Virus record (IMG/VR): IMGVR_UViG_3300043786_000780
Location: 1 to 24,199 of that record
Direction: 5' to 3' (one strand)
Origin: a virus
DNA: 24,199 nucleotides
Shown here: positions 8,953 to 24,053 of the stretch, in pieces
Position numbering within the stretch: the stretch's first letter is position 1
Layout: every line of letters begins with the position of its first letter
Position numbers and translations under genes: made by a program
The notes under the pieces: model-generated
Seen by the model: the letters and a program-made list of their open reading frames with translations, nothing else
Database searches by the model: none
Told to the model about the DNA's origin: nothing

Positions 8953-9395
8953 CAGCGGAACGTCCGGTAGGTGACCGTGATGACCGCCCGCCAGACGTTG
9001 CGTTCTTGGAGGGCCTCGTCTGGGTTGATGTCGATCGTGATGGCCTGCGGGCTCGTCACGCCCGTGGGGAACTGCACCGCGCCCCAGGAGTGGGCGAGGA
9101 TCGTGTCTACGATCTCCTCGGCGAGCTCGAGCATTTCGTCGGCCAGGGCGTCCGTCGGCGCGTGGCGGCCGACGAACACGTTGACCGTGTAGTCGTGCTG
9201 GTGCTGGGTGCGATCCACCCGCTCGATCGTGTCGGAGCCAGGCGTCACGGCCACGACCGGGTCGGCCATGTCCTCAACGTCGTAGCTCGGCCAGTTGACC
9301 CGCTGCACGGTGGGCTGAGTATCGACGCTGGAATACTCGGCGTCGGCCAGGCCGTCAGCCAGAGCGTCGGCGAGATCCTTGAGCATCGAACTCAT
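8952..9395 (-). CDS. Tail completion or terminator protein candidate (147 aa)
   Basis: Small acidic alpha/beta protein. The N-terminal helix (MSSMLKDLADALADGLADA) is followed by strands, then a segment reading HQHDYTVNVFVGRHAP, a second acidic helix (ALADEMLELAEEIVDTI) and a final strand pair ending in RAVITVTYRTF. This helix-strand pattern, the length, and the place directly before a gp10-like gene and tube genes agree with tail terminator or completion proteins of siphophages (gpU-like or HK97 gp11-like roles). The start is in an ATGA overlap with the glycosyltransferase gene upstream. Confidence 0.7.
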   Translation of the reverse strand: MSSMLKDLADALADGLADAEYSSVDTQPTVQRVNWPSYDVEDMADPVVAVTPGSDTIERVDRTQHQHDYTVNVFVGRHAPTDALADEMLELAEEIVDTILAHSWGAVQFPTGVTSPQAITIDINPDEALQERNVWRAVITVTYRTFR

Positions 9396-10441
9396 GCCGC
9401 CACCTCTAGGATCCGCTCCATGTTCGTGACATTCGCCACGAGTCGCGGGTCGTCAGGACATGATGCCAACGCTTGCCGGGCCAGGGTGAGGGCCTCGGGC
9501 CTGTTTCCGAGGTTCCAGGCGGCCACCGCCGCCAGGTCGTACGCCTTGCCTTTGGCCAGCGGATCCGTTGCGTGGGTGCTCGGCCACTCGGATGCGATGG
9601 CTTGCTGGGCAAACCCGTAGCACTGTTCCCACTCCTGCCGGCGGTAGTGGCACAGGGCGAGCTGCTGCCAGGCGTCGGGTTCGCCGATGGCCGCCTTAGC
9701 GGCAGCGTGCAGGTGCTGCTCCTCGCCCGTCAGCCGGTGCATGGCCCGGTAGGCATAGGCCCGTTCGGTCGCCTGCCCGTGGGGCATGGCGAGGTAGGCC
9801 GCAAACGTGGCCGCAGCCTCCGGGCAGCCGGCCCACTCCTCCTCCCGGGCCAGATACCAGAGCGGGCGCGGGTCGTGTGGAGCCTCACGCACCGCCACCC
9901 GCAGGAGCTCGAGGTCCGTCTTGTGTTTCTTGCCCGTGTCACGGTGGTGGTGGATCTCCAGTCCCTCGGCGAACACCGCCACCTTTTCGCCGGCCCAGCA
10001 CGTCAGGCCCTCGTGGGTCGCCTGGGACCAGCGGAACCCGTGTCGAGCGTGAACTCGGTCGGAGTGAAACCACAGGCCAGGCACGCCAGGAGCCTGCCAC
10101 GACCAGACGTAGCGGTAGTGGAGGTTGTTGGTACCGCCCGTCCACGCCCGCTCAATCGCTTGCCGCCAGCCAGGCTGAATCCGCTCGTCGAGGTCGAGGC
10201 GGACGCACACGTCCACGTCGGCCGGCAGGTGGTAGAGCGACAGGTTGTGAGCGTCGTCCCACCGCCACGGCACGACGTTGCCACGGGCCACGGTCACGCC
10301 GGCCGCCTCCAGGGCCTCCACCGTGCCGTCGGTGCTGCCGGTGTCGGTGACCACCCGCACGTCGGCCTCCTGGCACGAGGCCGCCCAGTCGGCGACGTGC
10401 TTCGCCTCGTTGCGAGCCAAGGCGTAGACGCCGATCTTCAC
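9392..10441 (-). CDS. GT2 glycosyltransferase with C-terminal TPR repeats (349 aa)
   Basis: Residues 1-170 are a GT-A domain of family 2. The start MKIGVYALARNEAKHVADW carries the typical (A)RNEA motif, then DTGSTDGT (33-40) binds the nucleotide part, DLDER (83-87) is the DxD-type metal site, and HEGL (143-146) and HHHRD (164-168) resemble acceptor-side and C-terminal motifs of TPR-linked GT2 enzymes. Residues of about 175-349 form helical repeats (TPR-like), often found in enzymes acting on protein or cell-surface acceptors. It is predicted to transfer a sugar from a nucleotide sugar; donor and acceptor are unknown. It is cytoplasmic, lacking signal or membrane segments. It ends the glycan block and overlaps both neighbours (ATGA on each side). 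Confidence 0.88.
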   Translation of the reverse strand: MKIGVYALARNEAKHVADWAASCQEADVRVVTDTGSTDGTVEALEAAGVTVARGNVVPWRWDDAHNLSLYHLPADVDVCVRLDLDERIQPGWRQAIERAWTGGTNNLHYRYVWSWQAPGVPGLWFHSDRVHARHGFRWSQATHEGLTCWAGEKVAVFAEGLEIHHHRDTGKKHKTDLELLRVAVREAPHDPRPLWYLAREEEWAGCPEAAATFAAYLAMPHGQATERAYAYRAMHRLTGEEQHLHAAAKAAIGEPDAWQQLALCHYRRQEWEQCYGFAQQAIASEWPSTHATDPLAKGKAYDLAAVAAWNLGNRPEALTLARQALASCPDDPRLVANVTNMERILEVAA

Positions 10442-11064
10442 GGCAGCCTCTCAAACACGATGAGCGTTTCGCCGGCCGCGCCACCGCAGAACCGGCACGC
10501 CGGGTGGCACCGCGCCTTGCCGATGCCCACGCCGCATGCGACCGGCCGCCAGGCGAAACCGGGCGGCATCTGAATCCGGGCCGCGAGCAGCTCGGGCCGG
10601 CAGTCGATCTCAATGTCTTCGATGACAAACGCCCCGCTGGGGGCCACGAACGGAAGCAGCGTTTCCGCCGTCACGATCTGGTGCCAGTCCTCGTGTGACC
10701 CGTCGTCGATGATGAGGTCGAACGGGCCGCCGCCTGCGTCCTCCACGGCGGCCAGGAGCGACGCACCGCTGCCCTGATCGGCGTAGTGACACTGGATCCG
10801 CCCGGCCGTGAACAGCACCTCGCGGCGGATGTCGAGCCCGACGATCGTGGCGAACGGGAAGTATTCCTCCCACATTCGGAGCGAGCATCCGGCGTTAACG
10901 CCGACCTCGAGCACCCTTCGCACGGCGTTGCGCCGGTTGCCGAACATCTCGTCGTAGGCCGGCGTGTAGTTGTGGCAGGTGTCGCCAGCAACGCCGCCGT
11001 AGGTCGTCGAGCGGCCACCCTTGTCAGTCTGGTGCTTGTCGGCCAGGTCACAGAGCAGCGTCAT
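10438..11064 (-). CDS. Class I SAM-dependent methyltransferase (208 aa)
   Basis: Start chosen at ATG 11064, in a TGATG overlap with the upstream gene (ATG at 11070 is possible). The opening LADKHQTDKG and HNYTPAYDEMF resemble sugar or natural-product O-methyltransferases of the MycE/cephalosporin hydroxylase-like group. SAM motif I is LEVGVNAG (52-59), followed by GLDI. IIDDGSH (118-124) and the EDIE segment (149-152) carry the acidic and His residues that bind metal in that group. The C-terminus has an unusual CX3CX2C cluster (Cys 186, 190, 193). In this context it probably methylates a sugar made by its neighbours, perhaps capping a glycan, but a small molecule or protein substrate cannot be excluded. 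Confidence 0.85.
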   Translation of the reverse strand: MTLLCDLADKHQTDKGGRSTTYGGVAGDTCHNYTPAYDEMFGNRRNAVRRVLEVGVNAGCSLRMWEEYFPFATIVGLDIRREVLFTAGRIQCHYADQGSGASLLAAVEDAGGGPFDLIIDDGSHEDWHQIVTAETLLPFVAPSGAFVIEDIEIDCRPELLAARIQMPPGFAWRPVACGVGIGKARCHPACRFCGGAAGETLIVFERLP

Positions 11065-11753
11065 CACCATCTCCCGTAGTGCGTGAATTGCGTTTCGTCG
11101 TGGCCCGCCGGATACCAGCGCACCGGCAGCACGTCGAGCAGCTCGACGTAGGCCATCGTGTTCATGTCCCACGACAGGCGGCCCGTGAGCCTGGTCCGCA
11201 GGCTGGCCACCGTCTCGACCGCATCGAACACCGACCCAATCAGGTGCCGTGGGCACACCCAGCACGAGCCCACGAAACGCCAGTGAGCGTCAGCGTCGTT
11301 AATTACGCCTTTGGGCCAGCAGCCCGGCAGCGTGACCGAGTCGCACGGGTGCTGCTCCAGGGCGTCCATGAACGACCGCAGCACGTCGGGTGTGACGTTT
11401 CGCTGCTTGAGAACCGTGTATTCGACCCAGGCAAACACATCGACGTCCGGGTAGAGTTCGGCCGCCCGTCGCATCCACTCGTACCGCTGCAACAGCACGA
11501 CGTTGCTTTTGGTCATGTCGGCCGGCTCGTGGAACCGGTCGGCCGGCGGGCTGGCACACGACGGCATGAGCGCGGGGTTTTCCCTGAGCAGCCGGTGAGC
11601 CCAGCAGTCCTCGAGGCGGGCTGCCTGGAACGTGTGCAGGCGGACGCCGAGGGCGTCCCGCAGCCGGCCGCCCAGGTCGGCACACTGGCCCTGGGTCAGA
11701 TGCCGGGCCGGGAACGGGTTGTGTACGAAGCCGGTGACGGCCATGGCTTTCAT
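11064..11753 (-). CDS. HtrL/YibB-like glycan-related protein, second tandem copy (229 aa)
   Basis: Starts MKAMAVTGFVHN in an ATGA overlap with the first copy, which shows the true start. Pattern resemblance to the HtrL/YibB family rests on a VTGFV start, an acidic strand motif (VDVFAWVEYTVLK, about 104-116), SWDMNT (194-199) and a final GHDETQFTHY (217-226). The same four landmarks occur in the neighbouring gene, though the middle parts differ greatly. Members of this family occur in polysaccharide clusters and are thought to be glycosyltransferases, with little direct biochemistry that I can name. A Cys/Trp-rich middle (CWVCPRH near 164) is peculiar to this copy. Probable cytoplasmic glycan enzyme; exact reaction unknown. 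Confidence 0.7.
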   Translation of the reverse strand: MKAMAVTGFVHNPFPARHLTQGQCADLGGRLRDALGVRLHTFQAARLEDCWAHRLLRENPALMPSCASPPADRFHEPADMTKSNVVLLQRYEWMRRAAELYPDVDVFAWVEYTVLKQRNVTPDVLRSFMDALEQHPCDSVTLPGCWPKGVINDADAHWRFVGSCWVCPRHLIGSVFDAVETVASLRTRLTGRLSWDMNTMAYVELLDVLPVRWYPAGHDETQFTHYGRW

Positions 11754-12454
11754 GGCGTGTACCCGCTGAAGATCGTCTCGTCGTGGTTGGCCTGGTAGAA
11801 GGCAAACCGGTTGCGGTTGTCCCGGGCAATGGCCGCCCAGGTGTTGACCTCCCACGTCGCCCGGCCCGTGCTCTCAAGTTGCAGCGTGGCGTACTGGACG
11901 CACTTGTCGTGGAACCAGCCCGACAGCACCGTGGGCATGACCATGACGCCGCCGAGCAGATACCACGCCGGCTTCGACCAGTCGATGAGCGGGCGACCGG
12001 TGAGCGGCCACGCCTGCGGGGCGGTGATCTTGTCCCGTGGTGCCGTGTCGTTGATCACGTCGAGGTAATCCATGACCAGGTCGTCCGTCACCTGCGGCAG
12101 ATGGAAGATGCCGAAGTCGATCCAGACCAGCAGGTCCGAATCGACAATTGCGGCGGCATCGGCCAGCCACTGCGACTTCTGGTGCTGCACCACGCAATAG
12201 GCGACCGTGTCTTTGACCGGGTCGCCGTGCGGCGGCTGGGCCCCGACGGCCGGGCCGTGCAGCCAGCAGCGTTTAAGCGAAGTCGGCCGCACCTTGGTCG
12301 TGATGCACGACACGAGGTCTTTTTCGGGCCCGTCGTAATAGGCGACGCCGGGCTGCCCGAGGCCCAGGAGCCGGCGGCCGAGTTTGGCGTAGCGGTCGTG
12401 CGGCCGGTGGACACTGTCGAGCCTCACGTAGCCGGTGACGAGAGTAGCTGCCAT
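11750..12454 (-). CDS. HtrL/YibB-like glycan-related protein, first tandem copy (234 aa)
   Basis: Start chosen at ATG 12454 (MAATLVTGYVRLDS), inside the end of the propeller gene with a 31-nt overlap; a start 30 nt further upstream gives an unconvincing Arg-rich leader. Landmarks are LVTGYVRL, YAKLGRRLL, VDSDLLVWIDFG (105-116, with acidic residues as in GT-A metal sites), WYLLGGVMVMP (164-174), WEVNTWA (201-207) and NHDETIFSGY (223-232). These agree with the HtrL/YibB-like family found in polysaccharide loci. It is a paralogue of the following gene. A glycosyltransferase function is inferred; the substrate is unknown. Confidence 0.75.
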   Translation of the reverse strand: MAATLVTGYVRLDSVHRPHDRYAKLGRRLLGLGQPGVAYYDGPEKDLVSCITTKVRPTSLKRCWLHGPAVGAQPPHGDPVKDTVAYCVVQHQKSQWLADAAAIVDSDLLVWIDFGIFHLPQVTDDLVMDYLDVINDTAPRDKITAPQAWPLTGRPLIDWSKPAWYLLGGVMVMPTVLSGWFHDKCVQYATLQLESTGRATWEVNTWAAIARDNRNRFAFYQANHDETIFSGYTP

Positions 12455-13494
12455 ACGTCGTCGGCCCTCAGTTCCGCCAGCCATGCCTCGGCGTCACGCA
12501 CGCCATACGACGCGATCACACGGTCGCCGTCGGCTACCAGCCCGGCTGCAAACTCGATCGCTCGGTGGACCTGGAACGTGAACGGCGGCGACACCCGCGC
12601 GAGCCGCAGCCAATTGTCAAACCACACGAACCGGTGTTCGTAGGCTCTGTGGCCTGCATCGACGATCGCCACCTCGTGAATCAAGCACAGCCAGCCATCA
12701 CGGAACGGCACAAGCTGCGAGCCGCCGCGGAAGCCACGCGCGAGGACGGGCGACGGCGACCGGCGGCAGAGTTGCCATGCGCCCGGCAGCGTCGGGTCGT
12801 CGTCCACCGTGACGACGTGGCCGTTGATGTGGCTGCCGTAGAGCCAGCCGCCACGGCCCTCGATCGGCATCCAGTTCTTCTCGTCGCCCGGCGTGGCCAG
12901 GCTGTCGAGCACCCTGAGGTTTGCCAGCGTCGCCGTGTCCACGTCCAGGTCGGCCGCTGCAATCCGGCAACGCCCGTCCGTAAACGGTGCCACGTCTCGC
13001 ACGGTGGCCGACACGCCTATACCCGTTTGGGTATGCCGCAGCCGGCAGTCCTCGAGGCCAGTGACGACGTAGCCGCTCCTGGGATAGTCCGGGTCCGTGA
13101 TCGTGCGGCAATCCACAACGCCGAGCTCGCCGGTGAATCGCACGAGCTGGTTCCGGGTGCGGATCTGCCCGCCGTCGGCCGCCGGCATCTGGTACTGGCC
13201 ATTGACGATCTGGTAGTTGCTCGACCGCACGATCGCCAGCAGCTGCCCGGCGTGGCGGATCAGCGTCGGATTAAACGTGGACCAGCCGGGCTCGGCCGGC
13301 GGCACGTCGATCCGCACCGGCAGGACGGGCACGAGGGTGTCCAGTGTCGGCGTGTACCAGGTGCGATTGGACCGCACGAGGTGCTCGGTGGCCTCGGGCA
13401 GCGGCGACGACAGCAGTCGCTCGCAGGCCCTGCGGCCCGTGTCGAGCTCGCCGGCGTAGTAGGCGTGGATGGATAGCGCGAAGTCGTGCTCCAT
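12424..13494 (-). CDS. GH130/GT108-like beta-propeller glycan enzyme candidate (356 aa)
   Basis: The first 55 residues form a helical TPR-like lead (YYAGELDTGRRACERLLSSP) ending in RSNRTWY. The rest is beta-rich with regularly spaced motifs: FNPTLI (74-79), GLEDCRL (146-152), EKNWMP (205-210), GSQLV (258-262), HRFVWFD (287-293), IEFAAGL (313-319) and SYGVRDAEAW (329-338). This order resembles five-bladed propellers of the GH130 phosphorylases and related mannosyltransferases (EDxR, KNxxP, and a late G-x-D-A motif), though the residues are divergent. It may therefore add or phosphorolyse a sugar. It lacks signal and membrane segments. First gene of the glycan block, 31 nt after the beta-helix gene, without a strong ribosome-binding site. 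Confidence 0.7.
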   Translation of the reverse strand: MEHDFALSIHAYYAGELDTGRRACERLLSSPLPEATEHLVRSNRTWYTPTLDTLVPVLPVRIDVPPAEPGWSTFNPTLIRHAGQLLAIVRSSNYQIVNGQYQMPAADGGQIRTRNQLVRFTGELGVVDCRTITDPDYPRSGYVVTGLEDCRLRHTQTGIGVSATVRDVAPFTDGRCRIAAADLDVDTATLANLRVLDSLATPGDEKNWMPIEGRGGWLYGSHINGHVVTVDDDPTLPGAWQLCRRSPSPVLARGFRGGSQLVPFRDGWLCLIHEVAIVDAGHRAYEHRFVWFDNWLRLARVSPPFTFQVHRAIEFAAGLVADGDRVIASYGVRDAEAWLAELRADDVWQLLSSPAT

Positions 13495-15050: not shown

Positions 15051-15542
15051 TCAACTGTAGGAAGTGGTAAGTCGGTCGTCCCATTTGACGTTGGTGGCGG
15101 TCGCCGTCGTCACCGTACCAGCGGCGGCAACTGTGGTTCGGCGGATCGTCCACACGCTCGCGCTCGTCGCGCTGCCAGGCAGGGCGCGACCGAGATACGA
15201 GACGTTCGACACCGTGTCGCTGCGGACGGCACCGCCGCCAGCCGCGCCGGTCGGCCCCGTGCTACCGGCGGCCCCAGCAGATCCCGCCGCACCCGTTGGC
15301 CCGGTACTGCCTACGCCAGCCGCGCCGGCAGGACCAGTGACGCCGACGCCTGCGGACCCCGTGGGCCCGGTGCTACCGACGCCAGCCGCACCAGTGGGGC
15401 CAGTCACGCCAGCTGCTGAAAAAAATCCCGCAAGCGTCGTCAGTGTGACGCGCTTCGTCGCCCCGTCCGAGACGATCGGCACCACGTCCGGTCCCGTGAC
15501 GGCGGTGTCGAGCGGCAGCTGCGTGATACGTCGGAGGGCCAT
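15051..15542 (-). CDS. Collagen-like fibre protein with phage adaptor N-terminus (163 aa)
   Basis: The N-terminus (MALRRITQLPLDTAVTGPDV, then VPIVSDGATKRVTLTTL) matches the common phage fibre adaptor pattern ITxLP...VPIVxDGxTxRVTLxxL that anchors appendages to the virion. Residues of about 45-104 are Gly-X-Y-like repeats of the GPTGAAG, GVGSTGPTG type, expected to form a trimeric collagen-like rod. The C-terminal 59 residues are a short beta-like cap rich in Thr and Val. No enzyme motif is visible. The upstream junction is 9 nt without a strong ribosome-binding site. It is the second collagen-like gene in this block. Confidence 0.85.
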   Translation of the reverse strand: MALRRITQLPLDTAVTGPDVVPIVSDGATKRVTLTTLAGFFSAAGVTGPTGAAGVGSTGPTGSAGVGVTGPAGAAGVGSTGPTGAAGSAGAAGSTGPTGAAGGGAVRSDTVSNVSYLGRALPGSATSASVWTIRRTTVAAAGTVTTATATNVKWDDRLTTSYS

Positions 15543-15551
15543 GGTGATGCG

Positions 15552-16253
15552 TTAGGTGTAGGCCACCGTCGGTGGCGTGAAGTTGCCGGTGAAGATCGCC
15601 TTGCCCTTGACGATGCGAAACTCATCGATGTAGCCGGCGAAATGTGCGGCACCCGCCCCGTTTTCAACAAGTTTGCCAACGGCCGTAATGTCTGCCGACG
15701 GAATGTTTAGGTCAGCGTTTGTGACAGAAGGTGTATCCTCGACCCCATCAACAAACAGACGCAGACTGCCATTGCTGCGAGTCACTGCGACGTGAACCCA
15801 CTGATCAGTCGGAACCTCCGCGCCAACGCACTGGAGCGTCCACTGGTTTTGCCCGGCATTTTCAGCGAGAAACGATAGAGTTTCGTCGCCAGCAACATAA
15901 AACAGCCATTTTGCAAACGGCGTCGGGGTCGGCGCTAGGTCGTAGGCAGAGGCAATCGGCCGCGTACCAGAAGACTCAGAATCCACAAACACCCACGCCT
16001 CAATTGTGAAGTCGCCACTGCCGAGTTCGATTGGTGCAGTCGTGGACACATAATCGCCGTCGCCATCAAGGGCGAGGCTCGCGCCGCCAAACTTGCTTTC
16101 GGCCGTGCTGATCACGGCATTGCCCGATGCCGTCAGCGACAAGCTGTCTGGCGAAGAGTCAGTGATCGACGTGGAATTATTGCTGCCGTCGAAATGCAGC
16201 AACAGCGCATGGCTGGTTACAAATCGGGAAAACATTCCAGCCTTGCACCTCAT
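15552..16253 (-). CDS. LamG/concanavalin-like lectin-domain protein (233 aa)
   Basis: Start chosen at ATG 16253 ([11 protein letters not shown]), in an ATGA overlap with the collagen-like fibre gene. Residues of about 15-225 are one LamG-type jelly roll. Its landmarks are [12 protein letters not shown] and [15 protein letters not shown], then [49 protein letters not shown] and [13 protein letters not shown]. This is the Laminin_G_3 pattern seen in many phage appendage proteins, where it may bind glycans on the host surface or support fibre assembly. GC content is visibly lower (near one half) than in flanking genes, suggesting separate acquisition. It could equally bind glycan made by the neighbouring sugar-modifying genes. 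Confidence 0.88.
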
Positions 16254-17191
16254 GACAAGTCTCCGACGACGAGCCATGTGTCGCCCTGGTACAAAATTGC
16301 AGTGCCGGCTGAATACTTGGCCCGCAGTGACGCACCAGGAGTCGCATTGACCGTTACGCCTGTCGCTCCGGTGACCGAGACGGCCGCGTCGCCCAGCCTG
16401 GCAATGTCAACATGCGTGCCAGTCGGGAACGCCACGGAGGCTGCGGCCGGTATCACAACTTGCAGCGTGCCAGTGGTGTCGTTGAGCGTGACGAGCTTGC
16501 CGGCGTCCGACAGAGCCAGCGTGTAGCCGGTCGTCTGGGCGTTGATTGCCTGGGCGTCAGCAAACCCTCCAACGCTGCCCGTAGGACCGGTCACGGTAGA
16601 GGCAGGGCCCGTGGGGCCGCCCGATGGGCCTGTTGGCCCTGTGACGGTTGACTCTGCGCCAGTCGGGCCCGTCAAAGAGGCACCCGTTGGACCCGTCACT
16701 GTAGACGCAGCGCCCGTCGGTCCAGTTACGGATGACCCTGTTGGCCCAGTCGATGCAGCCCCGGTGGGTCCAGTAACGGTCGAGGCCGGGCCCGTAGGGC
16801 CAGTGACCGAGGCACCAGTTGGCCCGGTCACCGTCGATGCTGAGCCAGTGCTTCCCGTAGGTCCGGTTGGCCCGGTTACGGAAGGGCCAGTTGGGCCGGT
16901 GACGGAGGTGCCCGTTGGACCCGTCACTGTGGACGCAGACCCGGTTGGCCCGGTCACGGTGGACGCAGCCCCGGTGGGCCCAGTCACGGTGGATGCGGGG
17001 CCGGTGCTGCCCGTGGGCCCATTGCTCAAATCCACCGGCCCGCTCGGCCAGCCGGAAAGTTCCTTCGGCCCATAGAGGTATCGGCCCGTCTTGTCGATGA
17101 ACACGTCACCGACATTGCCCAGCGAGCCCGTGGGGGCTCCGCTGCCGGCCAGCACTGGCGAACCGCCCGTCGGTAGCGAGAAGAATGGCAT
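16250..17191 (-). CDS. Collagen-like, Thr-rich fibre protein (313 aa)
   Basis: Three parts. The N-terminal 57 residues include [19 protein letters not shown], a usual adaptor in phage collagen-like proteins. Residues 58-207 are GPTG-based repeats with STVT interruptions (units such as [10 protein letters not shown]), so the collagen register is broken regularly. The C-terminal 106 residues ([35 protein letters not shown], and a final TWLVVGDLS) match a widespread C-terminal trimerisation or head domain of phage fibres. It probably forms a thin trimeric whisker or fibre on the head, neck or tail. Every third residue in many units is Thr, as in bacterial collagen-like proteins whose GPT repeats are O-glycosylated. 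It begins 2 nt after the head-tail joiner gene. Confidence 0.9.
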
Positions 17192-17699: not shown

Positions 17700-18017
17700 T
17701 CAGCGGTCGAGCAGCACGAGCACGGAGGTGTCGGCAGCCGCCCGAGCCTTGGCGAGATAGCCGGCCGCGGTGCCGGTCGAGGCATGCGCCACGCCCGAGG
17801 TCGCGTACCAGCTGATCGCCGAGCCCTGGGCACCGGTCGCACCGGTCGCACACGGCATCTCGACGATGCCCTCGATCGACACGACGCCGGTCTTGCCGGC
17901 GGCGATCGGCCGAGGAGCAACGCCCACGATCGAGCCCATGACCACCACGTCGCCAGCAGCCACGGCCGAGGCCGGCGTGTGGTCGAGGTAGTCACCTTGA
18001 GAAACGGTCGAAGCCAT
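17700..18017 (-). CDS. DUF2190 capsid cement/decoration protein (105 aa)
   Basis: Reads MASTVSQGDYLDHTPASAVA, then AGDVVVMGSIVGVAPRPIAAG and GVVSIEGIVEMP, ending with LAKARAAADTSVLVLLDR. This is the DUF2190 pattern (GDxIDYTP, Val-rich strands, LGKALEAAxA....VRL ending), a family of small trimeric proteins that decorate and stabilise phage capsids. The usual place, directly after the major capsid gene, agrees. An AAAGG ribosome-binding site precedes the ATG. Hairpins lie on both sides, which may allow separate dosage of this abundant protein. Confidence 0.9.
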   Translation of the reverse strand: MASTVSQGDYLDHTPASAVAAGDVVVMGSIVGVAPRPIAAGKTGVVSIEGIVEMPCATGATGAQGSAISWYATSGVAHASTGTAAGYLAKARAAADTSVLVLLDR

Positions 18018-18103: not shown

Positions 18104-19954
18104 TCACGCCGCCGAGTCGCACTTCACGCCGGCGAGGTACTCCGCCTTCGCACAGCCGAAGTCGAAATAGCCACGCATCTGCACGCCGAGCGTGTTGAAG
18201 TCGGCCTCGGCCGTCTCCACCACCGGGCTCTGCTGCCCGTTGAGGAACGCCACCTCCATGACCGGCAGGTCCGCCGGGGAGGCAAGCAGGTAGTAGTCGG
18301 TCGTGTTGGTGAGGTACACCGAGGACACGACGTCGTACCGACCGGCCATCACGTTCCGCTCCGGCACGCCGCCGGCAGCCGCCGTGGCGCTGTGGAGCAG
18401 CGTGCTGCCCATGATCTCGGCGGCCGTCAGCTCGAGGTCCGGCGGCACGAGCAGGATCCGGGGCTCGACCGCGACGGGGTTGCCGTCGGGATCCTTGAGC
18501 TTCCGGTAGCTCGTGGCCAGGGCCTTGAGGTTGGCCACGCTCAGGGCGTGCGAACCAGCCCGCAGGTTGTTCCGGCCGCTCGTGAAGAACGAACCGTCGT
18601 CCACGAACTCGGCCCAGAACACGTCGTTGAGCTTCAGGGCACCGCCGCGGCCGATCCGCTGCGGAACCGCCGTGAGCGCCCCGAGGTCGTCGTTGATCAG
18701 GTCCGTACGGGTGACCGAGGTCATGATCCCGTAGGTGGAAGCACTGATCTCACGCTTCTCGTCGTTCGCGGCGGCGTTCTTGAGCTCGCCACCGTTGGAC
18801 ACGGCGTCGAACTTGAACGACCCGTTGAGCCGGTAGCTCGTGACGGTCTTGAAGTCGTTCACGCTCCGCACGGCCGAGATCCGCCGCCAGGCCGACTCGA
18901 CCGAGTCGAAGCCCGCCAGGAGGAACTTGTTGACCGTGCTCGACAGGATGTCGGCGATCGAGTGAGTCGCCCACGCCGCGGCCAGGATCGGCCGGAGGGT
19001 GGAAGACGTCACACGCCGGGGCCCGTCGTAGCCGTTCGCAGCCGCCGCCTGAAGCAGCACCTCGCTGATCGAGATCTCGCGGCGGGCCTTGTGGGCCGCC
19101 TCGAGCACCTCGGGCCGGTACTTCTTCTCGACGCCGGGCAGGCCACCCTGCAGAGCGAACGACGCCTCGATCACCTCGGACGACGGTGCCGAGTCCTTGA
19201 CGACGTGGACCGCCGGGGCGGCGGGACGCTCGTCACGGGCGGCGATCAGCTTTTCCATGTTCTCGACTTTCTTCGTGAAGGCGTCGATCTTCGCCGACAG
19301 CTCGTCGCTGGCGGTGATCTCCACCGTGCTCTTGATCTCCACGGCGTCCTTCGCCGTGGCTTCCACGACCGGGGCCTGAGCCTCGTCCGCGGGCGTCTTG
19401 TTGGCGTCAGCCGCCATGGTGGGTAGCTCCTCCGCTGCTTCCGCAGCGATGGCGACGCTTGTCTCTGCATCAGCGCCGAGGGTCACGAAAGAAACCTCCC
19501 GCAGAGCGGAGGCTTTGACGATGCGGACCGGACCCATATGGGTCTGCCCGTTGACGGTGGTGACGGCGTCGGCGTCAACCTTCTGGTGGCGACGCACGTC
19601 GGCCCCGACGCTCGCCTGCCAGGCATAGCCGCGTTCGGCCAGCTGCAGCACCTGGCGGGCGACGTCAGAGTCGGCCAGGATCTCGCCCTCGACGATCAGC
19701 TTCCCAGCTTCCACGCGGACCGAATCGGTCTGCCCCAGGATGCTGCCGAGGGTGTAGTCATGGCCGAGCACGATGGGCAGACGCTGCTTGAACTGCATGC
19801 CGGCCAGGTCGATGACGACCGGCTCCCGGGACCAGCCCTGGCGAATCTGGGATCCCGTGTACGCCTCGATCGTGAACCGGCGTGGCGACGCTGCAGCCTC
19901 GCCTTCGGCGGCCTGGAGAAACGTCACGGACGTGTCGAGCTTGATCGTGTTCAC
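18104..19954 (-). CDS. Prohead protease-major capsid protein fusion (616 aa)
   Basis: One polypeptide with two functions. Residues of about 1-175 are a prohead protease: LPIVLGHDYTLG gives the catalytic His65, WQASVGAD the catalytic Ser115, and ALREVSFVTLGADAETSVAI is the family's closing motif. Residues of about 175-250 are Ala/Glu/Lys-rich with a coiled-coil-like stretch (DELSAKIDAFTKKVENMEKL), resembling a scaffold or delta domain. Residues of about 258-616 resemble a Mu gpT-like or HK97-fold major capsid protein (SAWRRISAVRSVNDFKTVTS, SRTDLINDDLGA-type segment, LVPPDLE). Self-cleavage probably frees the capsid part during maturation. GTG start in a GTGA overlap with a micro-ORF. A separate protease gene is absent. 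Confidence 0.9.
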   Translation of the reverse strand: MNTIKLDTSVTFLQAAEGEAAASPRRFTIEAYTGSQIRQGWSREPVVIDLAGMQFKQRLPIVLGHDYTLGSILGQTDSVRVEAGKLIVEGEILADSDVARQVLQLAERGYAWQASVGADVRRHQKVDADAVTTVNGQTHMGPVRIVKASALREVSFVTLGADAETSVAIAAEAAEELPTMAADANKTPADEAQAPVVEATAKDAVEIKSTVEITASDELSAKIDAFTKKVENMEKLIAARDERPAAPAVHVVKDSAPSSEVIEASFALQGGLPGVEKKYRPEVLEAAHKARREISISEVLLQAAAANGYDGPRRVTSSTLRPILAAAWATHSIADILSSTVNKFLLAGFDSVESAWRRISAVRSVNDFKTVTSYRLNGSFKFDAVSNGGELKNAAANDEKREISASTYGIMTSVTRTDLINDDLGALTAVPQRIGRGGALKLNDVFWAEFVDDGSFFTSGRNNLRAGSHALSVANLKALATSYRKLKDPDGNPVAVEPRILLVPPDLELTAAEIMGSTLLHSATAAAGGVPERNVMAGRYDVVSSVYLTNTTDYYLLASPADLPVMEVAFLNGQQSPVVETAEADFNTLGVQMRGYFDFGCAKAEYLAGVKCDSAA

Positions 19955-20004
19955 AGGAACTCCACCAGTTCGTGGTCGTCGTCGTCCCAGTCGAAGTCGC
20001 TCAT
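19951..20004 (-). CDS. 17-codon acidic micro-ORF between portal and capsid genes
   Basis: ATG at 20004-20002 overlaps the portal stop (ATGA), and the TGA at 19953-19951 overlaps the GTG of the capsid fusion gene (GTGA). The product would be MSDFDWDDDDHELVEFL, with nine acidic residues of seventeen. Both junctions are the coupling type used across this operon, and the start and stop fill the gap exactly, so translation is likely. The role is unknown: coupling between portal and capsid translation, or a very small head-assembly peptide. Conservation in related phages would decide. Confidence 0.6.
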   Translation of the reverse strand: MSDFDWDDDDHELVEFL

Positions 20005-21428
20005 GCGTCCACCTCGTCGAGAGGCTGCATGGGCTGCGACCCGGGCTGCTGGATCTCCAGCCCCAGTTCCCGCATCAGCCCGCGCTCGGCGGCGATCTGC
20101 CGAAGCTCGACGTCCCACTGCTTGCCGGCCTTGGCGTACTCAGCAGCCAGCGTGGTCGTCAGCGTGCGGAGCCGCGTCTCGGTGGCGTTGGCTTCCTTGG
20201 CCGGATCGACGTGGTCCTTGCCGTCCCAGACCCAAGCCCAGTTCCACTCGCTGAACGGCGGCAGGGCCTCGGGCAGCACGCCGGCAAGCGACGCTTCGTT
20301 CACCCAGGCCGACAGCACCCGGTCGAGCATCACCCGCTCGAGCTGGTCCCGCTCCACCCGCTGCGTCATCGCATAGACCTGGTGGTCCATGCGGCCCGAA
20401 GCGTAGTTGTAAGACGACGAATCCAGGGCGGCGACGTTGTATGGCAGTTGCAGGCAGCGTGAGATCTCGTTGACGATCTCCCGCTTGAACATCGCGTAGG
20501 TGCTGGTCGGCTGCTCGGCCTTGAGCTGCGACACGTTCCAGCCCTCGGGCAGCGTCACGAGCGACCGCTTCTCGATCTCCATCTCGGCGAACGCCTCGAC
20601 CTCGTCCACCTCGGCCGCCGGGCTGTTGCTGTGGATGAACGCTGCGAAGTCCGCCGCCGTCTCGGCTGCCGCAATAACGGCCTCCGTGTACCGCCGCAGT
20701 TGGCCGAACAGCCGCAGAGCCGGGGCCACCTCGCTCACGCCGCGGTGCTGCCCGGCCCGGGAGGCCGAGAACCAATGCACGACGGCCGCCGCCGGCACAC
20801 GCTGGAACTCGAGGTTGTTGATCTTGAAGTTGGAGCCCGGGTGGTAGTTCAGCACCTGGTACGCCACGACGTTGCCAATGGCGTCGAATTCCAGACCATC
20901 GACGGTGTTGCCCTCGGGCGTCACCGTTTGGCTCATGAGCTCGGTCGGCGTGGCGACCATCTCGGCTTCGACGAGCCGCAGGTCGAGCTGCACGCCCGAA
21001 AGCCTCGGGTTGTTGATCATCAAGGCGAACGACTCGCCGTCGATGACCCGGGCCTCGGACATGGTGCGCAACTTGCCGGGAAGATCGACCGTCCAGCCCC
21101 AGTCGAAGAACAGCCGCTCCACAAGCCGGGAGTCTTCCGGGTCGCCGATGTCGAGCTGGAGACGAGGGCCGGTGCCAATGAGGTCACGAGCAATCGTCTG
21201 CACCATGCCGGCCAGGTACGAGTTGTTCGCCCGTTCGTAGCGGGCCCGGTTGCGGATCGTCCGCCGCACGGTCGGCGACAGGGCCGCATCGGCCGCAAAC
21301 GCATCGGCGTTCGACCAGTGCCGGCGATCCTCGTTGCTCTCGGCCGCGTCGTACTTGGCACGCACCCGCACTGGCACCGGCGATGGGCCGGGCTTGGGCT
21401 TGCCCAACAGACGGGTGAAGATTCCCAC
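20001..21428 (-). CDS. Portal protein, lambda-type (475 aa)
   Basis: Forms the dodecameric ring at one capsid vertex through which DNA is packaged and ejected. It belongs to the lambda gpB-type portal family (Phage_portal_2). The pattern includes YDAAESNEDRRHWSNADAF (26-44), RNRARYERANNSYLAGM (59-75), GTGPRLQ (85-91), HWFSASRAGQHRGVS (218-232) and SSYNYASGRMDHQVY (338-352). The C-terminal 60 residues are a Glu/Ala-rich helical segment and a Gln/Pro tail. Length is normal for the family. Start is GTG at 21428, sharing one base with the stop of the gpW-like gene. Confidence 0.95.
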   Translation of the reverse strand: MGIFTRLLGKPKPGPSPVPVRVRAKYDAAESNEDRRHWSNADAFAADAALSPTVRRTIRNRARYERANNSYLAGMVQTIARDLIGTGPRLQLDIGDPEDSRLVERLFFDWGWTVDLPGKLRTMSEARVIDGESFALMINNPRLSGVQLDLRLVEAEMVATPTELMSQTVTPEGNTVDGLEFDAIGNVVAYQVLNYHPGSNFKINNLEFQRVPAAAVVHWFSASRAGQHRGVSEVAPALRLFGQLRRYTEAVIAAAETAADFAAFIHSNSPAAEVDEVEAFAEMEIEKRSLVTLPEGWNVSQLKAEQPTSTYAMFKREIVNEISRCLQLPYNVAALDSSSYNYASGRMDHQVYAMTQRVERDQLERVMLDRVLSAWVNEASLAGVLPEALPPFSEWNWAWVWDGKDHVDPAKEANATETRLRTLTTTLAAEYAKAGKQWDVELRQIAAERGLMRELGLEIQQPGSQPMQPLDEVDA

Positions 21429-21634
21429 TACAGCGACCCCGGCGGCACGAGCTTGTTGAACCGCAGTCCACGCCGCGTGTTGCCCGACGAAGTCACCGCA
21501 GCCTTGCCGGCCAGGTACTTGTCGGCGGCGATCATCGACTCCAGGTCCTGAGCCTCGACCTCACCGGCATCGGTGCGGACGCGCTTCGGACCTTGGGCCG
21601 TGCTAGAGATCTTGTCGCTGAGTTCGTCGCTCAT
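21428..21634 (-). CDS. gpW-like head-tail joining protein (68 aa)
   Basis: A small basic protein between terminase and portal genes, the position of lambda W. The sequence has DLESMIAADKYLAGKAA followed by RRGLRFNKLVPPGSL, matching the gpW-like pattern (DLxxLIAADRYLAxKAA...K.V.PG). It is expected to join the portal ring and the tail. An N-terminal Ser/Glu/Lys-rich tail of about 25 residues is extra. No clear ribosome-binding site lies before the ATG, and TGGCG/CGCCA can pair directly ahead of the start, so translation may depend on the upstream gene. Confidence 0.75.
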   Translation of the reverse strand: MSDELSDKISSTAQGPKRVRTDAGEVEAQDLESMIAADKYLAGKAAVTSSGNTRRGLRFNKLVPPGSL

Positions 21635-21685: not shown

Positions 21686-21829
21686 CTATTTCGCCGCCAT
21701 GGCCAGGCCCACGTTCGCCAACGCATAGCCGAACCAGGCGATGGCCATGCCCGGCGACCCTTGACGGAATTGGTCAACGGCCACGACGAGGTAAACGACG
21801 CCCACGATCAGGATCAGCGGTGCGCTCAT
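21686..21829 (-). CDS. Small two-helix membrane protein (47 aa)
   Basis: ATG at 21829 overlaps the terminase stop (ATGA), so this start is preferred over a longer frame with an implausible Gly/Arg-rich leader. The sequence has two hydrophobic stretches (APLILIVGVVYLVVAV, residues 3-18, and IAWFGYALANVGLAMAA, about 30-46) joined by DQFRQGSPGM. It would span the membrane twice as a small hairpin. Holin-like size is suggestive, but no lysis gene is nearby and no family is recognised. The position between terminase and gpW-like genes is unusual for a holin. Function unknown. Confidence 0.7.
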   Translation of the reverse strand: MSAPLILIVGVVYLVVAVDQFRQGSPGMAIAWFGYALANVGLAMAAK

Positions 21830-23931
21830 GTGCCCAGCCTCTTGACCACGATTCTCTTGCGGCCCATCCCGCCGGCCGTCGGCATCTCGACCTTGCGACG
21901 TCGCCGGCCACCGGCCTCGGCCGCCGTCGGCTGCAGACCCGTGATGCTCGCCGCCACCGCCGAGCCCACCAGGCAGTCCCACCAGTGATTTTCCCGGCTG
22001 CCGGCCTTCCACTCGTCCACCACCCGGCCCCGGGCCTCGGTCCGCACCGGGTACTCGCTAGTCAGGTGCTCGAGCAGCAGGTCGTGGTCACCCTTGTGGA
22101 GCGTGATCGCCTCCGGGTCGCCGATGGCCATGCGGAGCCGCGCCGCCGTAAACGTCTTCCACCAGTTCGTGTCGTAGAGCACCGACCGCTGCTTGGCGTC
22201 GCCGATGTTGCCGATCCGCCAGTTGAGCCCCATCTTGTCGCCACGGTGCCGGCCGGCGTCGGTGATCGGCTGCGAGCTCGCACCCACGCCCTTGCCGTGC
22301 GACGGGTAGATCTGGCCGGCGAACGGTGACTGCCGGGCGAACGTCCGCACGACCGGCGTGCTGTTGCCCCAGTTGGCGTCCACCATCATCTGAGATACCC
22401 GCAAAGCCACGCCGTCCTCGCGCTTCCAATCCGATCCGAGGATCAGCCGGGCCACCTCGTCGAGCCCAGCCCGCCACGCCCCGTCATCGGTCGCACCCTT
22501 GGCCGCTGACTGCATCGTCCGCTTGGCGTGGGCCGCCTCAAAGAAACTCGATGCTTGGTCCGGGTAGGTGCCGTAGGCCACGACGTGCCCGCCGTAGGAA
22601 TCCGACCACGACGAGACGAGCCAGTAGAGGAGCTTCTGCTGCACGTCCACGAACGCCGTCAGCGTGTTGTGCCCGGCCGGCACGATGGCTCTCGGCGTGT
22701 TCGTCGCCCGCAACGCCAGGGCCCGTTTGTCGAGCTTGTCGCTGGCGATGTCGTCCGCCATCGGCTGGTTCTGGTACTCGGCAAAGAACGCCGATTCGCC
22801 CCGGTCGATTCGGAGGTTCCACGCATGCTGGATGGCGCTCACCTCGTCCGGGTTCTTTCGCTCTGGCCACGCCACCCGTCCGCCGGCGTCCATCTCGGCC
22901 TGGTGCTGCCGGTAGAACTCGTCGGCCTCGGTGGTGCCACGCCCGTCCCGCTGCCCCTGCCGCCGCATCTCGGCGTACTGCCCCCACATCTCGTCGGCCG
23001 GCGGCCAGTCGTAGACGAGCTTCGTCCGCTCGCCTTGCCACGACGGATGCTTCGCACGGTCGAGCAGTCGGTCCGCCAGGTCGTCGGGCCGGATGACGGT
23101 GATGGTGCAGAGCCCGGCAATCTTCGCGCCCGGGCCGGCGAGGCCAAGGATTGCACCGCTGAGGATCTTTTCCCGTGTCGCCACCTGCGACGGGCTGGCC
23201 GCCGATTCGTCCGTCTGCGGGTCGTCGATGAGCACCAGCGACGGTCGCACGGTCGAGCCGTCTGGCCTCGTGTGACGAAGACCACGGATGCGGCCCGTGA
23301 TGCCGGCCACCCGCACGGCAGCCCCAGACGACTTGGCCTTGCCGATCCACGGCAGCGTGATCTGGTCGGCGGTCCACTCAATGTGCGTGGGCTCGCCCTC
23401 GCACGTCTGCCCCTGGGCCCGGCGGGTGATGCCTTCCATGGCTCGAATCGGGAAGCACGCCGCCGGGAAGTCCTCGAGGAGCAGGTCGTTTTGCTCCAGG
23501 TTGGTTTTGATGCTGTCGAGCATCTGGCAGGCGATGGCCTGGTCGGAGCCGATGAGCATGACGAACTGGCGATGCCCGTAGAGCAGCGACCAGATGCAGG
23601 CCCACTCAGCCAGCGTGGTCTTGCCGGATCCACGCGGCATGGCAAAGGCGAAGAGCTCGCCCCGCAGCACTGCGGCCTCGATCATCTCGATCGCCCGCAG
23701 GTGGTCCGGCGACCACGCCAGTGGGAACGCCTCTCGGCCGTACGTCTCGCAGAACGCCCGAAACGACTCCCGGCACGAGGCCAGCCGCTTGGGATTCTTG
23801 GGAGGCGGAACCGAGCCGATGTCACGGCCGGCGGCAGACAGGCGACGCGACCAGTTGCCGCCTTGCTCCTTCTGCTTGTCGTAGGCAGCCTTGGCTTTGT
23901 CGAGTCGTTTTTTCTGGTCAGAGCGAACGGC
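21826..23931 (-). CDS. Terminase large subunit (701 aa)
   Basis: The ATP-driven DNA packaging motor and nuclease. The N-terminal ATPase has Walker A MPRGSGKTT (98-106) and Walker B SLVLIDD (231-237). The C-terminal RNase H-like nuclease shows three spaced acidic sites: FVDVQQ (Asp429), MMVDANWG (Asp518) and HWWDC (Asp652). The C-terminus is Arg/Lys-rich. Length is within the range of GpA-like large terminases. GTG at 23931 is chosen because GAAGGG lies 10 nt before it; a TTG at 23949 would add six residues but lies inside that Shine-Dalgarno sequence. It is the first gene of the operon. No small terminase gene is present in the window. Confidence 0.95.
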   Translation of the reverse strand, partial: AVRSDQKKRLDKAKAAYDKQKEQGGNWSRRLSAAGRDIGSVPPPKNPKRLASCRESFRAFCETYGREAFPLAWSPDHLRAIEMIEAAVLRGELFAFAMPRGSGKTTLAEWACIWSLLYGHRQFVMLIGSDQAIACQMLDSIKTNLEQNDLLLEDFPAACFPIRAMEGITRRAQGQTCEGEPTHIEWTADQITLPWIGKAKSSGAAVRVAGITGRIRGLRHTRPDGSTVRPSLVLIDDPQTDESAASPSQVATREKILSGAILGLAGPGAKIAGLCTITVIRPDDLADRLLDRAKHPSWQGERTKLVYDWPPADEMWGQYAEMRRQGQRDGRGTTEADEFYRQHQAEMDAGGRVAWPERKNPDEVSAIQHAWNLRIDRGESAFFAEYQNQPMADDIASDKLDKRALALRATNTPRAIVPAGHNTLTAFVDVQQKLLYWLVSSWSDSYGGHVVAYGTYPDQASSFFEAAHAKRTMQSAAKGATDDGAWRAGLDEVARLILGSDWKREDGVALRVSQMMVDANWGNSTPVVRTFARQSPFAGQIYPSHGKGVGASSQPITDAGRHRGDKMGLNWRIGNIGDAKQRSVLYDTNWWKTFTAARLRMAIGDPEAITLHKGDHDLLLEHLTSEYPVRTEARGRVVDEWKAGSRENHWWDCLVGSAVAASITGLQPTAAEAGGRRRRKVEMPTAGGMGRKRIVVKRLGT

Positions 23932-24053
23932 CACGTTTGGACCCTTCAAAACACGTCATTTTGCGTAGGCTCGCCGCAAGGGCTCGGGCTGAAAGTCGAG
24001 GGAAGAACCTACCCCCCCAAGGTGGGTGTAGCATTTTGCAACAGTGCGTTTTT

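Follow-up and report, generated by a model that had tools for sequence, protein, structure and literature searches.

The 17-codon micro-ORF that bridges the portal and capsid genes of an environmental virus probably encodes a real, tiny and overlooked phage protein, because relatives of the virus keep the character of the peptide even where the ORF has moved or where the peptide appears to be fused to the portal. The window analyzed here is the whole of an IMG/VR virus record of 24,199 bp, and the genes described below lie on its minus strand. The micro-ORF extends from 20004 to 19951, with an ATG start codon at 20004-20002 and a TGA stop codon at 19953-19951, and specifies the peptide MSDFDWDDDDHELVEFL, in which eight of the 17 residues are acidic. 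It is preceded by a lambda-family portal gene (21428..20001; PF05136, E 2.8e-59; phrog_21), whose TGA stop codon (20003-20001) forms an ATGA overlap with the micro-ORF start at 20004-20001, and is followed by a gene (19954..18104) for a fusion of prohead protease, linker and major capsid protein (PF04586 and PF25209; phrog_4523, “major head and protease protein”), whose GTG start codon forms a GTGA overlap with the micro-ORF stop at 19954-19951. The gap between these two neighbors is 46 nt. A preliminary description of this DNA had proposed a very acidic, exact-fit ORF with overlaps on both sides, and its coordinates, overlaps and acidity all proved correct, with the strand, which it did not give, now added. 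Of the two essential neighbors that it named, the portal stands, and the “capsid” gene encodes the protease-capsid fusion instead of a plain capsid protein.

The remainder of the neighborhood is that of a phage head module. Along the minus strand come the gene for the terminase large subunit (23949..21826), then a 68-aa ORF (21634..21428) directly before the portal, the portal gene, the micro-ORF, the protease-capsid fusion gene, a head decoration or cement protein (17700..18017; PF09956, phrog_122), and more structural genes. The 68-aa ORF, for which a family search of Pfam and PHROGs returned no match, occupies the place that gpW has in lambda. Between the terminase and the 68-aa gene, a 108-aa ORF has a hydrophobic end (MSAPLILIVGVVYLVVAVDQF...) at 21686 to about 21830; this ORF likewise had no match in Pfam or PHROGs, and may be another overlooked small membrane protein. 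Further along, collagen-like proteins with many TGPTG repeats are encoded at 16250..17191 and 15051..15542, and the structural gene block also holds a run of ORFs at 9392..13494, which we take to resemble glycosyltransferases or related enzymes.

Gene callers usually omit ORFs this short, and in one sequence the exact fit of such an ORF is weak evidence of function. When the inner 46 nt were subjected to 5000 dinucleotide shuffles with both overlaps held fixed, the frame stayed open in 54% of them, as would be expected if the ORF were a chance open frame without function. The acidity is another matter, since an open frame with at least eight acidic residues arose in just 0.02% of the shuffles. 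Likewise, among the 13 gaps of a hand-picked list of window genes (the micro-ORF's included), two others hold an ORF of at least eight codons (18 and 41), and neither of these is acidic. As far as the sequences go, evidence beyond chance comes from the comparison with relatives, and the conservation statistics and position control given below contradict the chance explanation, which we consider extremely improbable.

Relatives were gathered from IMG/VR and MAG contigs. Loci numbered up to L477 came mostly from eight viral scans (seven with a portal query and one with the fusion protein) and two genome scans, to which the window's own copy (L081) and named phages (L273-L277) were added from outside the scans. 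The viral-scan loci are the matches listed, a non-exhaustive sample in which many contigs were recovered repeatedly. After identical junctions had been collapsed, and L081, L273-L277 and loci lacking a portal hit excluded, 161 junctions that contained a portal stop as well as a hit to the fusion gene were kept among the matches listed; entries whose portal end was open (13) or that lacked a fusion hit (10), neither group deduplicated, were set aside. An exact fit was defined as an ORF of 8-45 codons that starts from -12 to +40 of the portal stop and ends from -12 to +14 of the fusion start. Acidity was no criterion, but the acidic candidate was preferred where several ORFs fitted.

By this definition, 94 of the 161 distinct junctions among the matches listed contain an exact-fit micro-ORF, located within the head module directly after the portal, which is the place searched by construction. 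These ORFs are 15-27 codons in length and encode 59 distinct peptides, in all of which D+E exceeds K+R by 4 to 10. Two further positives (L396 and L393) were found by eye, one locus (L098) carries an acidic tail on its portal in place of a separate micro-ORF, and two copies are broken, one by an in-frame amber codon at codon 3 (L072) and the other by loss of both its stop and the capsid start codon (L035). Relatives of the broken loci have intact copies, and the breaks represent either decay or sequencing error. The remaining 62 junctions have no micro-ORF; a direct overlap of portal stop and capsid start is present in 51 of them.

The pair-wise pattern of substitution argues that the peptide itself is maintained. 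In 21 independent pairs drawn from 69 distinct sequences, there were 100 changed codons, 38 of them synonymous, versus 21.4 of 114.9 in simulations, with none of 1000 simulations as high, and the differences were distributed over the three codon positions as 30/32/74, so that the third position accounted for 74 of 136. An earlier set of 19 pairs from 62 sequences, chosen on nucleotide identity, gave 32 synonymous among 92 changed codons versus 19.1 of 105.4 simulated (p 0.0005), and the acid state was retained in 77 of the 92 versus 71.3 of 105.4. The synonymous excess persists when the last five codons, which hold a Shine-Dalgarno (SD) site, are removed (18/62, p 0.0055). It is also specific to the frame; the +1 and +2 frames of the same 19 pairs gave 19/89 and 13/90 versus 32/92 in frame. 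Moreover, D and E make up 39% of residues in the micro-ORF frame versus 1% and 7% in the other two, which hold stops in 61 and 31 of the 62 sequences. Judged by these patterns, the coding frame of the micro-ORF is under purifying selection, and the peptide sequence is highly variable among relatives.

Two features recur amid this variability. A hydrophobic-[D/E]-[F/W] motif, defined after the alignment had been seen, occurs within the last nine residues of 46 of the 62 peptides (shuffled mean 11.2, maximum 21 in 2000 shuffles), and most of the 16 peptides that lack it have a related hydrophobic-aromatic end such as VIFL, VIYL, ITFG or EIWL. Near the other end, an acid-(x)-aromatic pattern is found in residues 2-11 of 56 of the 62 (shuffled mean 41.7, maximum 54 in 1000 shuffles). 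Such peptides are also tied to their location. In a position control covering 1.04 Mb on both strands of the 161 loci listed, which are stretches around the portal and not whole genomes, ORFs of 15-27 codons that contain the motif and reach 30% D+E numbered 34 at the junction and 0 elsewhere; the count of 34 falls short of 94 because the longest ORF per stop alone was taken.

The arrangement of the micro-ORF relative to its neighbors is variable. Measured from the end of the portal stop, the 94 copies start at -4 (76), +1 (13), -8 (2), -1, -11 and +18, and relative to the fusion start they end at +4 (64), +1 (18), 0 (5), -1 (5) and -3 (2), with both 4-nt overlaps present in 48 copies. All three relative frames thus occur on both sides, indicating an independent cistron and ruling out a conserved frameshift fusion to either the portal or the capsid protein.

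A sister clade with portals about 50% identical provides a more distant comparison. Specifically, the micro-ORFs of L393 (MWDFEDEGDEDCACDIEIEWFG), L400 (MGLDDFWFEEEEEGDESLVEFLDL) and L402 (MPQFIAAEEYEDDDECDPFIEFL) begin 4-9 nt past the stop codon of the portal gene and terminate 88, 50 and 65 nt ahead of the fusion start, respectively. Their SD-like sites have energies, in the same order, of -7.3, -10.9 and -13.0, and the motif is kept as IEWF, VEFL and IEFL. In a further version, that of L399, the ORF begins 2 nt beyond the stop codon of the portal and has 44 codons with VEF in mid-peptide. The capsid-start overlap is missing in four sister-clade junctions, and the motif in this clade is not placed to act as the SD of the capsid gene. 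Together with relatives that have their SD elsewhere, the sister clade leaves an SD constraint unsupported as the sole source of the C-terminal motif. The fusion-protein scan that covers this clade yielded at least 57 distinct junctions, after 12 loci with no portal or fusion hit had been set aside. Its filter positives were L398 (from the same contig as L393), L400 and L402, and L399 was recognized by eye; the other 53 of the 57 junctions listed gave no candidate, the portal or capsid having been misplaced by the script in some (L425, L446 and L466, for example). Separately, stretches resembling TTGTCA-N17-TACAC lie just before the fusion ATG, with no clear SD, in L399 (2465-2503) and L400 (from 2430). 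Among 484 loci of the matches listed, L399, L400 and L401 alone contain the TTGTCANATTTGAGAC part, and the element is possibly a promoter of the capsid gene's own, giving a leaderless mRNA.

The translation signals around the micro-ORF suit coupled translation. In the window, a strong SD-like site, ACGAGGTGG, lies upstream of the micro-ORF in the final codons of the portal gene (20009..20017; duplex -10.6 kcal/mol, spacer 4 nt), and a weaker one for the fusion gene, AACTGGTGG, lies in the final codons of the micro-ORF (19962..19970; -6.2 kcal/mol, spacer 7 nt); both energies were computed on L001, which has the window sequence at ACGAGGTGG. Mean SD-like energies, which rest on a generic 16S tail, are -10.1 at the micro-ORF in 85 junctions versus -4.9 at random places, and at the fusion gene they are -6.7 after a micro-ORF versus -9.3 in 31 direct junctions. 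RNA folding around the capsid start is also weaker after a micro-ORF (-10.9) than in direct junctions (-14.3) or the background (-20.0).

These signals are what would be expected if the micro-ORF were a relay and nothing else, that is, a natural “bicistronic design” in which a short cistron with a strong SD opens the mRNA and passes ribosomes to the capsid gene, its peptide being inert. What defines a synthetic bicistronic design is a leader that contains a second SD and whose stop overlaps the next start, and capsid protein is required in far more copies than portal; moreover, 82 of the 94 exact-fit copies overlap the capsid start. Frame-specific conservation of amino acids is not predicted by this explanation, however, for the sequence of the peptide evidently matters. 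Nor does it account for the motif's persistence in the sister clade with the capsid start 50-88 nt away, for the tail carried by the L098 portal, or for the many relatives that manage without a micro-ORF. A relay with an inert peptide therefore seems unlikely. The preliminary description had offered a translational relay as one of two roles; the overlaps allow it as a possible second effect, and coupling may well be a second benefit of the micro-ORF, whereas peptide conservation and the sister clade speak against it as the whole explanation.

A different cis-acting role is suggested by the acidic residues near the N-terminus: all 62 peptides have at least three within positions 2-12, and 56 have at least four. 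As a nascent-chain leader of the MgtL/MgtQ type, the micro-ORF would destabilize the ribosome through these early residues, and so tune capsid synthesis to the ion or ribosome state of the cell. There are precedents in the available portions of two reports, one of mgtQ, an 8-aa ORF between Salmonella mgtC and mgtB in which Asp2 and Glu5 promote mgtB translation (PMC8092293), and the other of acidic-residue pausing that is relieved by EttA (PMC11282234). Nevertheless, abortion of translation at such residues would precede the conserved C-terminal motif, the capsid start lacks strong RNA structure and is distant in the sister clade, and in L098 the acid stretch comes at the end of a 604-aa protein. 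A leader of this kind is, on balance, doubtful.

L098, which is represented by three contigs with one distinct junction, merits closer description. Its portal has an extra domain, ends in ...NSVWERLQATWDFDDFDDVEDEEVILP and overlaps the fusion gene directly, and its C-terminal extension bears the tail ATWDFDDFDDVEDEEVILP, to which the nearest separate peptide, by eye and among the matches listed, is MTWDFSDEDEIEGLIEFGRKA of L064. Other portals with the L098-type domain stop before the tail and are followed either by a separate micro-ORF (L087, L090, L091 and L240) or by the capsid gene (L138, L140, L270 and L271). From this resemblance, seen by eye in one junction, the L098 tail looks like a fused version of the acidic micro-peptide. 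An AlphaFold model of the L098 portal has a mean pLDDT of 63 and falls below 50 for tail residues 589-604; with no predicted structure, the tail indicates no docking site. The tail also matches phrog_15760 over 38 positions, but at E 0.2 this match cannot be relied on.

Extended portals are found more widely in these viruses. About 115 extra C-terminal residues of the GLEWRREYGRGGTAVGVARARD...GGDAGRRWA type are present in L098, L087, L090, L091, L240, L138, L140, L270, L271, L391 and L393, and the L098 copy matches phrog_2859, a family of unknown function. A second extension, of about 160 residues with the P-loop GAPASGKSTYV, occurs in L046, L078, L079, L115, L210 and L211; Pfam AAA_33 scored above cut-off in L079 and L115, the two that were scanned, suggesting an ATPase- or kinase-like domain fused to the portal. 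Among distant relatives, many portals with no micro-ORF (L406-L476 and others) have a strongly acidic tail, such as GKEAGDDEDE. The mean acid fraction of the last 15 portal residues is 0.34 in the distant relatives (60 tails, L393's included), as compared to 0.24 in the 94 positives, 0.26 in the 37 in-clade negatives and 0.12 in the 16 intermediate negatives. Given these acidic stretches at the portal end, the micro-peptide may replace such a tail.

The micro-ORF has a patchy distribution, and so is not universal in head modules. Among the 131 junctions whose portals are at least 70% identical to that of the window, 90 are script-positive, one is positive by inspection, one is fused, two are broken and 37 have no micro-ORF; 36 of these 37 have no gap at all among the matches listed. 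At lower portal identities, again among the matches listed, the positives are 4 of 4 (62-70%), 0 of 16 (56-62%) and 1 of 10 (below 56%; L393). The preliminary description had proposed comparing the same gap in related phages, and the outcome is mixed: acidity is kept wherever the ORF is present, but with 37 of 131 close junctions lacking one, the micro-ORF is, by this sequence measure, dispensable. Even within one cluster of portals more than 92% identical, L022 has the micro-ORF and L023 has a direct overlap in its place. A quick 118-row portal tree requires six changes between presence and absence (with L098 scored as absent), and a 172-row tree including the sister clade and ten distant rows requires seven (with fused and broken copies scored as present). 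The root is unsure, given that the chosen outgroup does not form a single clade and that some of the rows are long; one old gain followed by several losses, or two gains, would fit. Cultured-phage records gave 86 portal and 111 fusion-protein matches, every one below 60% identity. A first scan of genome contigs for close relatives found none, and an alignment scan of genome contigs returned four loci: the junction of L161, micro-ORF included, is the same as that of L090, and L162-L164 have no micro-ORF.

Patchy presence and fast sequence change might also be expected of a peptide that is made but has a role outside of assembly, on a host or defense protein, for example, and is simply carried along with the head genes. 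Acidic peptides can bind basic proteins, and position by itself is no proof of function. Against this, such peptides numbered 0 away from the portal junction in the 161 short loci listed, and the L098 tail is fused to the portal itself, which makes a role outside of head building look improbable.

Taken as a whole, the evidence leans slightly toward a true head-module micro-gene whose acidic peptide is produced by coupled translation and acts in trans in head building. Ribosomes finishing the portal gene would reinitiate at the micro-ORF by means of the strong SD at the end of the portal gene and would, in most relatives, continue to the protease-capsid fusion gene through the second overlap. 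The product would be a short acidic peptide (15-27 aa in most relatives), presumably lacking a fixed fold, with an acid-aromatic N-terminal part and the hydrophobic-[D/E]-[F/W] motif near its C-terminus, and would most likely serve during head building as a short linear motif that docks on either the portal or the protease-capsid fusion; position and one fusion-like tail point to these two proteins as candidate targets. For the preliminary description's real assembly peptide, then, “peptide” draws on conservation, variable frame and spacing, the sister clade and the portal fusion, whereas “assembly” draws on position and that one fusion.

It is tempting to go further and to view the micro-gene as a portal tail that has come loose and is translated on its own, a minimal acidic C-terminal “adapter” that would recruit the protease-capsid fusion, or time its arrival, at procapsid nucleation. 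Such an adapter could exist as a separate cistron or form part of the portal (L098), and could disappear in viruses whose portal and capsid genes are directly coupled. This extension is tentative; if true, few known assembly factors would be as small. The idea that the peptide mimics the N-terminus of the fusion protein, both of which contain V-[ET]-F-L, was rejected: when 8-residue windows were compared, the best match lay at that N-terminus for just 4 of 54 peptides (median shuffle p 0.5). An alignment of fusion proteins from 21 of 24 named representatives, six of them lacking the micro-ORF (three were left out as incomplete or duplicate), revealed by eye no compensating segment in relatives without a micro-ORF over its first 360 columns; the L023 fusion protein has a longer linker. 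If the peptide does work with the portal, it would offer a very small handle on how portal and protease-capsid fusion are joined in procapsid assembly.

As a conserved gene of 15-27 codons in the head module of many environmental phages, the micro-ORF would mean that even well-mapped operons still conceal protein parts. The 17-residue peptide of the window is under the 20-residue limit of the family search, and three sister-clade peptides of 22-24 aa had no match in Pfam or PHROGs. A literature search, in which few subscription-journal papers were covered, returned no description of the micro-ORF or its setting, and the accessible text of a review of phage small proteins (PMC11323111) contains nothing on it. 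Papers on halovirus “acidic peptides” were set aside; in the text available, the words occur just in a reference title.

In comparison with known systems, the micro-ORF belongs with the phage small proteins, and short acidic ORFs within operons are already known in cis regulation (mgtQ). Its two neighbors, and their order, are those of lambda-family portal/protease-capsid fusion modules (PF05136, PF04586, PF25209; phrog_4523). Five cultured phages with distant portals have no annotated gene separating the portal gene from the head gene that follows it, and the 50-nt gap of PY223, read as sequence, has no acidic ORF by eye. As described in part of the mgtQ report (PMC8092293), that ORF is likewise very short and acidic, with a strong SD, and lies between two genes of one operon; it differs in having a 219-nt gap with alternative stem-loops and in acting in cis, whereas the micro-ORF has a 46-nt gap, direct coupling and a conserved C-terminal hydrophobic motif. 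Finally, the synthetic bicistronic design, going by the portion of PMC5995908 consulted, shares with the micro-ORF a short first cistron placed before an expressed gene, but the micro-ORF is natural, its peptide is conserved, and its sister-clade copy does not adjoin the second start.
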